From: Streptomyces yatensis
GTDB lineage: Bacteria > Actinomycetota > Actinomycetes > Streptomycetales > Streptomycetaceae
Length of the DNA: 64,000 bases
Direction of reading: 5' to 3'
Assembly: GCF_018069625.1 (NCBI RefSeq)
Contig: NZ_CP072941.1
Coordinates: forward strand, 2,356,001 to 2,420,000
The notes under the pieces were generated by a model. That model did no database searches and was not told the DNA's origin. It was given only the letters and a program-made list of their open reading frames with translations. Shown here one piece after another: positions 25,972 to 29,783 of the stretch; position 1 is the first letter of the stretch; the number at the start of each line of letters is the position of its first letter. Made by a program: the position numbers and the translations under genes.

Positions 25972-26793
25972 TCAGAAGGACGGCAGCACGGAGCCCTGGT
26001 ACTGGTCCTTGATGTACTTCTTCACCTCGGGGGAGGTGAGGAGCTTGGCCAGCTTCTTGACGCGCGGGTCGTCCTCGTTGCCCTTCTTCACGGCCAGGAA
26101 GTTGGCGTACGGGTTGTTCTTGGGCGATTCGATGAGGATGGCGTCCTTGGCGGGCTTGAGGTGCGCCTCGATGGCGTAGTTGCCGTTGACGACCGCGGCG
26201 TCCACGTCGTCGAGCGACCGCGGGAGCTGGGCGGCCTCCAGTTCCTTGAACTTCAGGCCCTTGGGGTTGGTGGCGATGTCCTTGGGGGTGGCCTCGTTGC
26301 CCACACCGCTCTTGAGCTTGATGACCCCGTTGGCGTCCAGCAGCTTCAGCGCGCGGGCCTCGTTGACCGTGTCGCTCGGAACGGCCACGGTGGCGCCCTT
26401 CTTGAGGTCGCCGGCCTTCTTCACCTTGTGCGAGTAGAGACCGAGCGGCTCGAGGTGCACGGTGACGACGGGCACGATGTCGGTGCCCTTCTTCTTGTTG
26501 AAGTCGTCCAGGAACGGCTGGTTCTGGAAGTAGTTGGCACCGACCGAGCCGTCCTGGGTGGAGAGGTTCGGCGTGTTGTAGTCGGTGAACTCCCGGACCT
26601 CCAGCTTGAGGCCCGCCTTGTCGGCCAGATGGTCCTTGACGTAGTTGAGTATCTCCGCGTGCGGGACCGGGCTCGCGGCGACGACCAGCGCGCCGTTCTT
26701 GTCGTTGGAGGACGAGGGGCTGCAGGCGGCGGCGCCCAGGGCGAGCGCGCCGGCGGCGAGGACGGTGGTGACGGTCTTGGTGGTGTTACGCAC
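25972..26793 (-). CDS. metQ: Methionine ABC transporter substrate-binding lipoprotein
   Basis: 273-aa NlpA/MetQ-family lipoprotein. Signal peptide 1-23 with the lipobox ending ALGAAAC; Cys24 would be lipidated. The mature part has NlpA features: HAEILNYVKDHLADKAGLKLEVREFTDYNTPN at the start and a central PSDTVNEARALKLL. It captures D/L-methionine outside the membrane for MetNI. GTG at 26793 with GAAAGG upstream. Third gene of metNIQ, 99 bp after metI. Confidence 0.93.
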   Translation of the reverse strand: MRNTTKTVTTVLAAGALALGAAACSPSSSNDKNGALVVAASPVPHAEILNYVKDHLADKAGLKLEVREFTDYNTPNLSTQDGSVGANYFQNQPFLDDFNKKKGTDIVPVVTVHLEPLGLYSHKVKKAGDLKKGATVAVPSDTVNEARALKLLDANGVIKLKSGVGNEATPKDIATNPKGLKFKELEAAQLPRSLDDVDAAVVNGNYAIEAHLKPAKDAILIESPKNNPYANFLAVKKGNEDDPRVKKLAKLLTSPEVKKYIKDQYQGSVLPSF

Positions 26794-26892
26794 GAAAAGT
26801 GCCTTTCTTCGGGGGCGCACGTAGCCGCCGCGGGTGCGGAAGCGGAATGACGGGCGGGCGGTACGGGAGGGGGACGGGAGGTGGGTGGGGGC

Positions 26893-27681
26893 TCAGGGGA
26901 CCTTGGTCGGCTCCACGGATTCGACCTCGGCGGGCGCGGCCTCCGGCTCCGGGGCCGGCGCGGGCTTCCCGGTCCGGGACGGTCCGCCGCGCAGCAGCAC
27001 CAGCCGCGGGGCGACCGAGGAGCGGCCGCGGTGGGAGAGGCCGCGGGCGGCGAGGTCGCCCGCGAACTGGATGACGGAGATGACCACCGCGAGGATGGCG
27101 ACGGTGATCCACATCAGCTTGGTCTCGAACCGCAGATAGCCGTAGCGGACCGCCAGGTCACCGAGGCCACCGGCACCGACCGTGCCGGCCATCGCGGAGT
27201 AGCCGATGAGCGCGACGATCGTGGTGGTCGCGCTGGAGATCAGCGCGGGCAGCGACTCGGGCAGCAGCACCTTGCGGACGACGGTCCAGGTGGAGCCGCC
27301 CATCGCCTGCACGGCCTCGACCAGCCCGCCGTCCACCTCGCGCACCGAGGTCTCCACGAGCCGGGCGTAGAAGGGGATGGCGCCGATGGCCAGGGGCACG
27401 ATCGCGGCCTCGGGGCCGATGGTGGTGCCCACGATCGCCCGGGTGAAGGAGATCAGGGCGACCATCAGGATGATGAACGGCATCGAGCGGGCGATGTTGA
27501 CGATCTGCCCGACGACCTTGTTCACCATGACGTTCTGCAGCACTCCGCCGCGGTCGGTGAGGACCAGCAGCACGCCGAGCGGCAGTCCGCCGACGACGGC
27601 GATCACCGCCGACCATCCCACCATGTAGAGGGTGTCCCAACAGGCCTGCTCCAGCAGGGGCTCCATCTCGGACCAGGTCAC
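26893..27681 (-). CDS. metI: Methionine ABC transporter permease
   Basis: 262 aa. Five or so membrane spans in the first 220 residues and the permease EAA-like loop around EAVQAMGGSTWTVVRKVLLPESLPALI. The C-terminal 45 residues are Pro/Ala/Glu-rich and cytoplasmic, beyond the usual MetI length of about 217. ATG overlaps the metN stop (4 bp), indicating coupled translation and a fixed stoichiometry with the ATPase. Confidence 0.94.
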   Translation of the reverse strand: MTWSEMEPLLEQACWDTLYMVGWSAVIAVVGGLPLGVLLVLTDRGGVLQNVMVNKVVGQIVNIARSMPFIILMVALISFTRAIVGTTIGPEAAIVPLAIGAIPFYARLVETSVREVDGGLVEAVQAMGGSTWTVVRKVLLPESLPALISSATTTIVALIGYSAMAGTVGAGGLGDLAVRYGYLRFETKLMWITVAILAVVISVIQFAGDLAARGLSHRGRSSVAPRLVLLRGGPSRTGKPAPAPEPEAAPAEVESVEPTKVP

Positions 27682-28733
27682 TTGGCGCCCTCCTTGAGCA
27701 GCGGGGTCGGGTTCGCGCGCGGGCCGTCGGCGACGGCCGCGACATCGACCTGCAGGCCCTGCTCCCGCAGGAAGCCGATCGGGACGACGTTCTCCTCGAA
27801 CCGGCCGGGCAGCTCGATCCGCATCCGGCCGACCTGGTGGCCGCCGACGGTGTCCATCGCGGCGCCCAGGATCGAGATGTCGATGTTGTACGTACGGGAG
27901 AGCTGGGAGATGACCGGCTTGGTGGCCGCCTCGCCCTGGAAGGTGACGTCCACGACCGTACGGTCCTCGCCCGAGGGCACCCCGCCGACCGGGAAGAGCT
28001 CCTGGGCCAACTCGGAGCCTGGCGTCGCCAGCAACTCGCTGACCTGGCCGGACTCCACGATCCGGCCGTCGCGCATCAGCGCGGCCGAGTCGCAGATCGT
28101 CTTGACGACGTCCATCTCGTGCGTGATGAGCAGCACGGTCAGACCGAGCTGCTCATTGAGGTCGCGCAGCAGCTGGAGGATCGAGCGGGTGGTCTCGGGG
28201 TCGAGCGCGGAGGTCGCCTCGTCCGAGAGCAGCACCTTGGGGTCGCCGGCGAGCGCGCGGGCGATGCCGACGCGCTGCTTCTGGCCACCGGAGAGCTGCG
28301 CGGGGTACGCCCTGGCCTTGTCGCCGAGGCCCACCAGCTCCAGCAGCTCCAGTGCCTTGCGGGTGCGCTCCTTGCCCGAGACGCCGAGGATCTCCAGGGG
28401 CAGCTCGACATTGTCCCGCACGGTGCGCGAGGAGAGCAGGTTGAAGTGCTGGAACACCATGCCGATACGGCTGCGGGCCTGGCGCAGCGCGGAGCCGGCG
28501 CTCTGCCGGCGCCCGGCGAGCGCGGTCAGGTCCTGACCGGCCACGGTGACCGTGCCGGAGGTGGGGCGCTCCAGGAGGTTGACGCAGCGGATGAGGGTGG
28601 ACTTCCCGGCGCCGCTCTGGCCGACGACGCCGTACACCTCACCCTCGCGGACATGCAGATCGACGCCGTCGAGGGCGGTGACCTCGCGGCCTCGTGAGCG
28701 GTAGACCTTGGTCAGGTCCGTGGTGGTGATCAC
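27678..28733 (-). CDS. metN: Methionine ABC transporter ATPase
   Basis: 351 aa. ABC domain with Walker A GQSGAGKST, Q-loop MVFQHFNLL, signature LSGGQKQR, and a Walker B-like VLLSDEATSAL where the usual LLxDE has Ser before Asp. The C-terminal NIL/ACT-like domain (about 265-340, VVDVTFQGEAATKPVISQLSRTYNIDISILG) binds methionine and allosterically shuts transport in E. coli MetN. GTG at 28733 preceded by GACGGAAA. First structural gene of the operon, with a 211-bp untranslated gap from the end of the leader peptide. Confidence 0.94.
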   Translation of the reverse strand: MITTTDLTKVYRSRGREVTALDGVDLHVREGEVYGVVGQSGAGKSTLIRCVNLLERPTSGTVTVAGQDLTALAGRRQSAGSALRQARSRIGMVFQHFNLLSSRTVRDNVELPLEILGVSGKERTRKALELLELVGLGDKARAYPAQLSGGQKQRVGIARALAGDPKVLLSDEATSALDPETTRSILQLLRDLNEQLGLTVLLITHEMDVVKTICDSAALMRDGRIVESGQVSELLATPGSELAQELFPVGGVPSGEDRTVVDVTFQGEAATKPVISQLSRTYNIDISILGAAMDTVGGHQVGRMRIELPGRFEENVVPIGFLREQGLQVDVAAVADGPRANPTPLLKEGAK

Positions 28734-28748
28734 AGGGTTTCCGTCACT

Positions 28749-28771
28749 GTTGAGTGCACGGCGGTTGGTGC
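28749..28771 (-). promoter_or_regulatory. Hairpin in the metN leader
   Basis: CGGCGG / CCGCCG stem with a CACCAA-type loop just upstream of the metN ribosome-binding site. It could act in attenuation together with the leader peptide; this is inference from position alone. Confidence 0.4.
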
Positions 28772-28944
28772 CGCCGGGCACGGCTCGTTCATTTCGGAAC
28801 GCGGCAGGGCGGACCCGAGGGGTTGCGCGGTGTGTGGGCGCGGTTCGGGTTCCGGTGACGCGGGGCGGCGCGGTCCGGCGCACTGGGCGCGCGGGTCCGG
28901 CTCAGCCGGTCTCGCTTCGGGGCGCGAGGCTCAGGCGGGGGCCC

Positions 28945-29031
28945 TCAGCAGTCACACATTCGACACCGACAACGAGCACCGGGCGTGGGGTTCGCCTCGG
29001 TCGCAGGGATGCGGCAGCTCGTCGTGGTCAT
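28945..29031 (-). CDS. Cys-rich 28-aa leader peptide of metNIQ
   Basis: ATG at 29031 to TGA at 28945-28947. The peptide starts MTTTSC and ends CRCRMCDC, so five of its six-odd sulfur-code positions sit in the last eight residues: Cys21, 23, 26 and 28 plus Met25, with Cys6 earlier. A -10-like TTTACT lies at about -13 to -8 from the ATG, so the message is probably leaderless. Short leaderless ORFs with clustered Cys codons act as cysteine-responsive attenuators before sulfur genes in mycobacteria; here the downstream operon is methionine uptake. No Shine-Dalgarno is present, in keeping with leaderless translation. Confidence 0.72.
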   Translation of the reverse strand: MTTTSCRIPATEANPTPGARCRCRMCDC

Positions 29032-29037
29032 GGCTGC

Positions 29038-29066
29038 AAGTAAAGCAGACACGTGTACGGGCCCAT
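29038..29066 (-). promoter_or_regulatory. Probable metNIQ leader promoter
   Basis: Reading on the minus strand, TTGATG then about 19 bp then TTTACT, ending a few bases before the leader ATG. The 19-bp spacing is one or two bases long. Position fits a leaderless transcript beginning at the leader ATG. Confidence 0.45.
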
Positions 29067-29096
29067 CAAGCATGTCCGTATAGTGGACATGCTTGA
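29066..29096. promoter_or_regulatory. Perfect 31-bp palindrome upstream of the metNIQ leader
   Basis: TCAAGCATGTCC and GGACATGCTTGA are perfect 12-bp inverted arms around a 7-bp AT-rich centre (GTATAGT). It abuts or overlaps the -35 region of the leader promoter, so a repressor site is the best reading. It is less GC-rich than its surroundings and has no T-tract, which argues against a simple terminator for the upstream HAD gene. Confidence 0.7.
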
Positions 29097-29135
29097 CCGG
29101 TCCGTGGACGGTGGAAGGGGTGCCCGGGACCCGGT

Positions 29136-29783
29136 TCAGACCCGGCAGGTGATCTCCACGGCCCCGTCGAGAAGCCGTGCGGACACGGCCGACAGGTCCT
29201 CGACCACGATGTCGGCGACCAGCTCTTCGCGGGCGGTCGTTGTGGTCAACGCCACGGTCCGCATCCCGGCCGCACGGCCCGCCGCGAGCCCGGCCGGGGC
29301 GTCCTCGAAGACCACACAGCGTGCCGGGTCGACTCCGAGCCGCTCCGCCGCCAGCAGGAACGGCTCCGGGTCGGGCTTGCCGCGGGTGATGTCGTCGGAG
29401 GTGATCAGCGTCCCGGGGCGTATCGCCACCTCGGCCAGGCGGGCCTCGGCCAGCGGGCGGTTGGCGGAGGTCACCACGGCCCAGCGCGCGGCGGGCAGCC
29501 CCGCCAGCAGCTCGGCGGTGCCGGGGAGCAGCTTCACCCCGCCCGGTACGTCCTCCAGCTCCAGCTCGTCGATGCGCGCCCGGGCCCGCGGGGCGCGGTC
29601 GGCGGGGAGCAGATCGGCGATGATGTCGTCGGCCGGGCGGCCGTGCAGCTCGACCCGGGCGAAGTCCTCCGCGGGAATCCCCTGCTCCTCGGCCCAGCGG
29701 GTCCAGCAGCGGTGCACCGAGTCCAGGGAGGAGACGAGGGTTCCGTCGTTGTCGAACAACAGCGCGTCAGCGGAGATCTTCAT
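29136..29783 (-). CDS. HAD-superfamily sugar-phosphate phosphatase
   Basis: 215 aa, subfamily IA with a helical cap. Motif I DNDGT (11-15, Asp11 nucleophile and Asp13 general acid), motif II TSAN, motif III Lys in RGKPDPEPF, motif IV FEDAPAG. The cap region and GKPDPEPFLLAAERLG resemble hexitol/2-deoxyglucose-6-phosphate phosphatases and beta-phosphoglucomutases; the asparagine in place of the common leucine or methionine between the aspartates favours phosphatase. ATG at 29783 with a weak ribosome-binding site. Upstream of metNIQ on the same strand, but the palindrome and promoter separate them. Confidence 0.88.
   Translation of the reverse strand: MKISADALLFDNDGTLVSSLDSVHRCWTRWAEEQGIPAEDFARVELHGRPADDIIADLLPADRAPRARARIDELELEDVPGGVKLLPGTAELLAGLPAARWAVVTSANRPLAEARLAEVAIRPGTLITSDDITRGKPDPEPFLLAAERLGVDPARCVVFEDAPAGLAAGRAAGMRTVALTTTTAREELVADIVVEDLSAVSARLLDGAVEITCRV

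Follow-up and report, generated by a model that had tools for sequence, protein, structure and literature searches.

Whether the import of methionine can be governed by the supply of cysteine is the question raised by a short open reading frame in front of the metNIQ operon of Streptomyces yatensis. It lies on the minus strand of the stretch of 64,000 nucleotides analysed here (the window; features in Table 1) and was originally predicted to be a leader peptide in which ribosomes stall at cysteine codons. Our best reading, to which we give a probability of about 0.6, is that metNIQ stands under a leaderless ribosome-mediated attenuator that would sense sulfur amino acid charging, with cysteine in the first place and methionine probably too. 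Besides the Pfam domains given in Table 1, MetI exceeds its cut-off in NCBIfam, whereas the best matches of MetN and MetQ stay under theirs.

Table 1. Features of the metNIQ operon and its leader region (positions in the window)
Feature	Position	Strand	Remarks
metQ (NlpA-type lipoprotein)	25972..26820	minus	Pfam NlpA lipoprotein
metI (permease)	26893..27681	minus	Pfam BPD_transp_1
metN (ABC ATPase, C-terminal NIL domain)	27678..28733	minus	Pfam ABC_tran and NIL
metN ribosome-binding region, strongly conserved	28734..28753	minus	
P5 hairpin just 5' of the metN ribosome site	28754..28781	minus	
C-rich spacer, possible Rho-loading stretch	28782..28910	minus	mean C 0.459 vs G 0.284
P4 hairpin after the leader stop	28911..28928	minus	CTCGC-GCCCCGAA-GCGAG, 5 bp
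Leaderless leader ORF (metL-type)	29031-28945	minus	translation MTTTSCRIPATEANPTPGARCRCRMCDC*
Sensor codons Cys-Arg-Cys-Arg-Met-Cys-Asp-Cys	28948..28971	minus	TGT CGA ATG near invariant
Three-way junction	28970..29024	minus	P1 29024-29017 with 28977-28970; P2 29013-29010 with 29005-29002; P3 29001-28993 with 28985-28978
-10-like box TTTACT	29039..29044	minus	ends 7 nt 5' of the leader ATG
Candidate -35 box TTGATG	29064..29069	minus	19-nt spacer, overlaps the palindrome; inferred from sequence, no call in the strict scan
Conserved palindrome, core GTCC-N7-GGAC	29066..29096	.	candidate IclR/NdgR-type operator, over the likely -35

Translation of the minus strand gives 28 residues followed by TGA and confirms the predicted end CRCRMCDC, with four cysteines and one methionine among the last eight residues. 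By base composition the chance of at least four cysteines in eight codons is about 1.2e-5, a value that applies to one given ORF only. The stop codon occupies 28947-28945 and is separated by 211 nt from the GTG start of metN at 28733, exactly as had been proposed. The leaderless-type -10 element of the original prediction is also found to be conserved, since TTTACT or TATAGT ends 6-7 nt 5' of the ATG in 133 of the 138 leaders described below, the transcription start having been measured in S. lividans only. A Shine-Dalgarno-like word occurs in 2 of these 138 leaders and is absent in front of the window leader, as would be expected of a leaderless start. No promoter was called when 28600-29200 was scanned with a strict E. 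coli-type model, so the evidence for the leader promoter is its conservation together with the S. lividans data.

For comparison 150 Streptomyces genomes were searched for MetI, and 142 were positive at E<=1e-60. From 143 MetI places 133 were used; omitted were the window's own (read directly), the second copy of G002, G050 (contig too short) and the places in G028, G054, G065, G066, G070, G071 and G149. An order-level search contributed 6 of 7 loci from another family of the same order (f3) and one paralog, so that 140 stretches upstream of metN (133 from the genus, 6 from f3, 1 paralog) and the window itself make up 141 loci. The comparison indicates that the leader is no chance ORF: it is present at 138 of the 141 metN loci, 132 of them from the genus and 6 from f3, and the loss of the ORF and its cysteine codons in relatives, named beforehand as one outcome that would speak against the prediction, is not what we see. 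The three loci without leader (L016, L124, L149) comprise two contigs that end early and the MetI paralog locus. The 132 genus leaders reduce to 99 unique peptides with the consensus MTTTSxRxxATEAxxTPGARCMCRMCAF. The f3 leaders (e.g. MIANTSSRMPAAAMAPGMMCCRFACRMCGC), with TATAGT 5' of the ATG, match them in little beyond the Cys-Arg-Met-Cys end. With leaders chosen by a score that favours Arg-Met-type ends, the frame and an Arg-Met near its end are kept in 98 of the 99 unique peptides, including all 27 whose length differs from 28 residues.

Two narrower signatures were tried and rejected. The exact CRCRMCDC codon pattern occurs in 4 of the 150 genus genomes, the window's included, and represents the window's own variant only. 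The sequence TGTCGAATGTG as a marker of further leaders gave 10 matches in the window genome (reversed control 0), one of which is the present leader; the other nine all fall within open frames exceeding 230 codons and do not look like leaders by eye. Outside the order 34 metN loci were read, one of them (L200) being cut too short. Other short cysteine-containing ORFs, by eye mostly with methionine, were seen at 11 of these loci (L180-L182, L185-L187, L190, L191, L194, L197, L213); two or more conserved types can be distinguished among them, A (L181, L186, L187, L213) and B (L185, L190, L194). The type A loci belong to family f19, in which a family-specific leader with GTG start and repeated Arg-Met-Cys precedes metN (L181: VNVAHGIDMTPQGRVMCRGTRMCGTARMCAMGGMPSMR).

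Which amino acid is read by the leader has to be judged mainly from its tail. Gap-free alignment is possible for 69 of the 99 unique leaders, and in these the conserved residues are Cys21 (62), Met22 (55), Cys23 (66), Arg24 (68), Met25 (68), Cys26 (52) and Cys28 (12); the window lineage has Arg at the usual position of Met22 and the additional final Cys. Over all 99 unique leaders the tail contains 1-5 cysteines (at least two in 98) and 0-4 methionines (at least two in 81), with cysteine more frequent than methionine in 67, equal in 30 and less frequent in 2. The extremes are represented by L055 with four cysteines and no methionine and by L101 with one cysteine and two methionines. The cysteine codons TGT and TGC are used 288 and 150 times in the leaders vs 4 and 284 times in metN, and codons 18-21 end with T in 112-126 of the 132 leaders, which is also unlike metN usage. 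The original prediction expected cysteine positions to be conserved while the surrounding DNA drifts. The first part is borne out by the tail counts, but the DNA itself is conserved down to the wobble bases. As the ORF is, in addition, overlapped by an RNA fold, cysteine sensing cannot be proved from the conserved codons alone. We thus favour cysteine as the main signal and methionine as a probable partner, a preference drawn from sequence for which conservation alone would be insufficient. Of the proposed coupling of methionine import to cysteine there remains a real and conserved leader that has kept its cysteine codons; cysteine as the sole signal is not supported, the methionine codons being conserved as well.

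The quadruplet TGT CGA ATG TGY (window 28955-28965), with the rare codons CGA and TGT, is fixed at the nucleotide level in two families and at one f19 locus; the sensor nucleotides are the same in another family and in L197. A pairing partner was sought for it and none was found, and TGT CGA ATG falls outside the P1-P3 stems. One may guess that slow decoding at the rare TGT and CGA favours stalling.

The tail also bears on the reading that ranks next, by which the leader would sense methionine, stalling at methionine codons would couple methionine import to methionine supply and cysteine would be secondary. It has the advantage that the cargo matches the signal, and the leader was published in this sense, as metL with methionine dependence (PMC8079986, in its Table 4). 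Met25 (68/69) is more conserved than any cysteine, Met22 is still present in 55/69, and the type A leaders of f19 are rich in methionine. Met22, however, is replaced in 14 of 69 leaders vs 3 of 69 for Cys23, the window tail keeps a single methionine and that of L055 none, and Met25 may be kept by the nucleotide conservation of TGTCGAATG. Moreover, MetN already possesses a NIL domain, through which we take methionine to feed back on the transporter protein itself; cysteine would then remain as a separate input. We therefore regard methionine as principal signal as rather unlikely.

The conserved wobble bases lead to the RNA. When 130 aligned sequences are folded together, a three-way junction appears within the ORF, with P1 (nt 8-15/55-62), P2 (19-22/27-30) and P3 (31-39/47-54), to which the T-ending wobble at codons 18-20 can be ascribed. 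The window sequence folds better than its shuffled versions (z = -3.26; 1 of 200 shuffles folds as well). Covariation in P1-P3 was evaluated on 52 of 130 distinct sequences picked at <90% identity. Standard pairs fill 95.8% of the pair cells (94.2% in shuffles, 26-47% in slid versions), and 13 cells are changed on both sides compared with 1.4 +- 1.1 in shuffles, a level that 0 of 500 shuffles reaches and that kinship can push above shuffles even in the absence of structure. Further pair types do not beat the shuffles (15 vs 13.8; 111 of 500). As many pairs hardly vary, the covariation is clear but modest. Downstream, both-side-changed cells number 4 in P4 (0.6 in shuffles) and 11 in P5 (1.0 in shuffles; inner stem 7 vs 1.6). 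A search of Rfam over the window at gathering thresholds found five tRNAs elsewhere and no match at the leader; with E up to 5 the region 28700-29150 gave two chance-level matches and none at E<2. Judged by these comparisons, the leader is a conserved ORF overlapping a covarying three-way-junction RNA without Rfam match.

A covariance model (R1) built from the 52 leader sequences matches in 142 of the 150 genus genomes, with one site each except in G002, where two sites lie on separate contigs. Within about 1.5 kb downstream metN or metI follows in 141 of these genomes; the R1 site of G073 lies on a different contig from its metI. Among the eight genomes without R1, six also lack MetI, and in two (G008, G050) the contig carrying MetI is cut off too early. 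G001 and G005 have R1 and no MetI match, yet metN is found downstream, G001 reaching the contig edge. In G005 (L243) metI is split across two frames, and leader, metN and metQ adjoin. Thus the R1 element is near-strictly associated with metNIQ in the genus. In 296 genomes of the class R1 was found in 28 of the genus and in one f19 genome (L180), there too before metN. Its matches to the f3 loci are unconvincing (best E 0.15), so that in f3 the codons persist and the fold is unrecognised.

Could the RNA fold itself be the regulator, either as a riboswitch-like aptamer or as a 5' structure that gates 70S loading or mRNA decay, with the codons of minor importance? Conservation at the nucleotide level, the covariation in P1-P5 and the stability against shuffles all agree with it, as do the codons of the P3 loop (14-16), which are free to change the amino acid. 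On the other hand, the ORF, its stop and the Arg-Met-ending frame survive insertions of 3n nucleotides. Several of these tail insertions bring in cysteine (CPC, CQC, RMC, LMC) and others none; three or more tail cysteines occur in 19 of the 27 length variants vs 46 of the 72 leaders with 28 residues, so the excess in the length variants is slight. The Cys-Arg-Met-Cys end of f3, a different family, without recognised R1 fold and the lack of any Rfam match at E<2 also speak against regulation by the fold, which we consider distinctly improbable. Still less credible is that the ORF encodes a functional small cysteine-rich protein (the idea being that its CxCxxC-like tail could bind metal) or that the conservation just marks a promoter/operator region (a conserved palindrome indeed precedes the promoter), since free codons 14-16, tail substitutions and changes in tail length speak against a folded product and the conserved blocks run on to the metN start, about 300 nt beyond the promoter.

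The preferred attenuator would operate as follows. RNA polymerase would start at or beside the A of the leader ATG, and a 70S ribosome would load on the 5' AUG, melt the three-way junction formed by the first 62 nt, then meet the Cys/Met run containing the rare codons TGT and CGA. If charged tRNA-Cys (probably tRNA-Met too) is scarce, the ribosome would stall at codons 21-28, where it would cover both P1 and P3 on their 3' strands, and metNIQ would be expressed. With ample sulfur amino acids it would reach the stop, the junction would refold and metNIQ would be attenuated in the 211-nt interval, either by Rho-dependent termination in the C-rich spacer, for which we have a slight preference, or translationally at metN. 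In this scheme we infer the stalling, cysteine as main signal and the sign of control. No intrinsic terminator (hairpin and U-run) was found on the minus strand of 28600-29200. C exceeds G in the spacer at 138 of 138 loci; as this also holds on average in the metN coding sequence (C 0.41, G 0.32), the Rho idea is weak, and Rho-dependent attenuation in the spacer can be considered as possible. A more far-reaching variant, in which one ORF reads cysteine and methionine jointly (its Cys-Arg-Met-Cys run sampling tRNA-Cys as well as tRNA-Met) and the junction refolds near the 5' AUG, the passage of each ribosome resetting the chance of a further 70S to load there, appears to us tentative and unlikely; if true, joint scarcity of both amino acids would set methionine import across Streptomyces and some relatives.

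Folding models suggest how little a stalled ribosome would change downstream. With a ribosome masked at the first cysteine codon the mean predicted pairing of P4 goes from 0.89 to 0.85 (n=124; 30 down, 15 up), and in the thermodynamic model the mean openness of the metN start region goes from 0.424 to 0.426 (n=132; 41 up, 37 down). The metN start codon is predicted to be mostly paired in every state (mean unpaired 0.10-0.11), and no conserved partner for the freed leader strand was found in these models. Several candidate pairings were rejected. An antiterminator of the P3 5' strand with P4, spotted by eye, shows more than two P3-P4 pairs in just 7 of 132 sequences, and P4 mostly persists under masking. 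A chain of alternative pairings at the metN start (GUGC/GCACU/AGUGA/UCAC) breaks by eye in several species through AGUG to AGCG. The metN start seemed to pair with the 5' end of the leader in 107 of 132, and a stalling-linked rise in pairing between leader and downstream region was apparent in 130 of 132; both are taken as an edge artefact because the partners moved when the 3' cut was shifted from +36 to +60. Finally, a long-range interaction between the P5 loop and the tail of the leader suits some species by eye, the window not being among them.

Methionine can supply cysteine by a pathway that includes cystathionine beta-synthase. This enzyme is encoded in the window genome (above the curated cut-off), so imported methionine could in principle feed cysteine. 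In S. coelicolor under H2O2, metN, metI and metQ are reported to rise 5.2-, 3.5- and 2.3-fold alongside cys and ssu genes, a response that the authors credit to HbpS-SenS-SenR, a SenR site being predicted near SCO1559 (PMC4991794). This co-induction by peroxide is consistent with metNIQ acting together with cysteine supply and would bear on the leader indirectly at most. The pairing of signal and cargo, originally called unusual, is therefore less odd than it seemed.

A second level of control may reside upstream of the leader. The palindrome is perfect in the window (TCAAGCATGTCC-N7-GGACATGCTTGA), and its core is near invariant in 132 genus sequences; the outer arms are complementary in 60% of cells, with 139 both-side changes vs 83 in shuffles. 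It resembles the published NdgR motif as far as given in PMC4340878, the main text of which does not contain SCO1557-1559. A MetF (PF02219) ORF has a similar perfect 17-bp palindrome in front of it, the start of which is 88 nt upstream (L251, G000:C1:7529538-7529554). Since it precedes metF, the sequences suggest that both palindromes might represent a shared methionine-regulon operator. A near match (L252, G000:C1:7656316-7656332) lies upstream of an ORF with an N-terminus that by eye is like that of a branched-chain amino acid binding lipoprotein.

Among known systems, polycysteine leaderless sORF attenuators with contiguous Cys codons were reportedly described before mycobacterial cysteine genes by Canestrari in 2020. 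There, stalling at these codons makes expression respond to cysteine and releases a sequestered ribosome site downstream. At the sequence level the Streptomyces element shares with them the leaderless-type sORF, several Cys codons near its end and the position before a sulfur gene. It differs in that there is no contiguous run, cysteine alternating with Arg or Met (consensus C-M-C-R-M-C), in that the cargo is methionine import and in the conserved three-way junction that overlaps the ORF. Cysteine leaders were also predicted for cys operons in mycobacteria and in Propionibacterium as well as for the Bifidobacterium cbs gene (Seliverstov 2005, PMC1262725); as far as accessible, the same study saw neither conserved structures upstream of methionine operons nor terminator hairpins conserved among the cys leaders. 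Like these actinobacterial leaders, ours has Cys codons near the stop and no obvious terminator. The profile NF042934 (cis_reg_atten) likewise describes short actinobacterial leader ORFs, some with cysteine, but of [HR]VDL type, and it does not match the window peptide. The window genome contains five NF042934 matches, and a Cys-bearing one (L214 1501-1581, G000:C1:6299094; MLLVARLHVDLCRLASAMCPRRAVAA) precedes a cysteine-synthase-like stretch as well as a small ORF that by eye resembles a sulfur carrier.

For the Streptomyces metNIQ leader the open-licence literature yielded the S. lividans paper only; the main texts of four reports on Streptomyces transcripts (PMC4895711, PMC6742748, PMC8780764, PMC8914203), as far as accessible, mention neither leader peptides nor attenuation, cysteine or methionine. 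In S. lividans TK24, metL (SLIV_29928) is listed as leaderless by RNA-seq and methionine-dependent with unclear termination (PMC8079986, Table 4), and L060 and L063 encode exactly the same peptide. It shares with the window leader the place before metNIQ and the ATEA...PGARC...MC frame and comprises 29 residues; in contrast, the window variant has more cysteine and less methionine. The published report deals with one strain, and the conserved RNA fold, the comparison across species and a role of cysteine are seen here and not in its accessible part. An element near-universal in the genus was found in the literature for one strain only, under methionine; the present comparison shows it to be a conserved RNA combined with a leader ORF whose Cys codons are at least as prominent as those for Met. 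It raises the questions of attenuation without an intrinsic terminator and of one leader reading two amino acids, and opens to test whether the leaderless cysteine sensing of mycobacteria also operates in Streptomyces and there serves the import of methionine. In summary, the leader is a known one, and what is new is its conserved RNA architecture together with a case for cysteine that is stronger than in the published reading.
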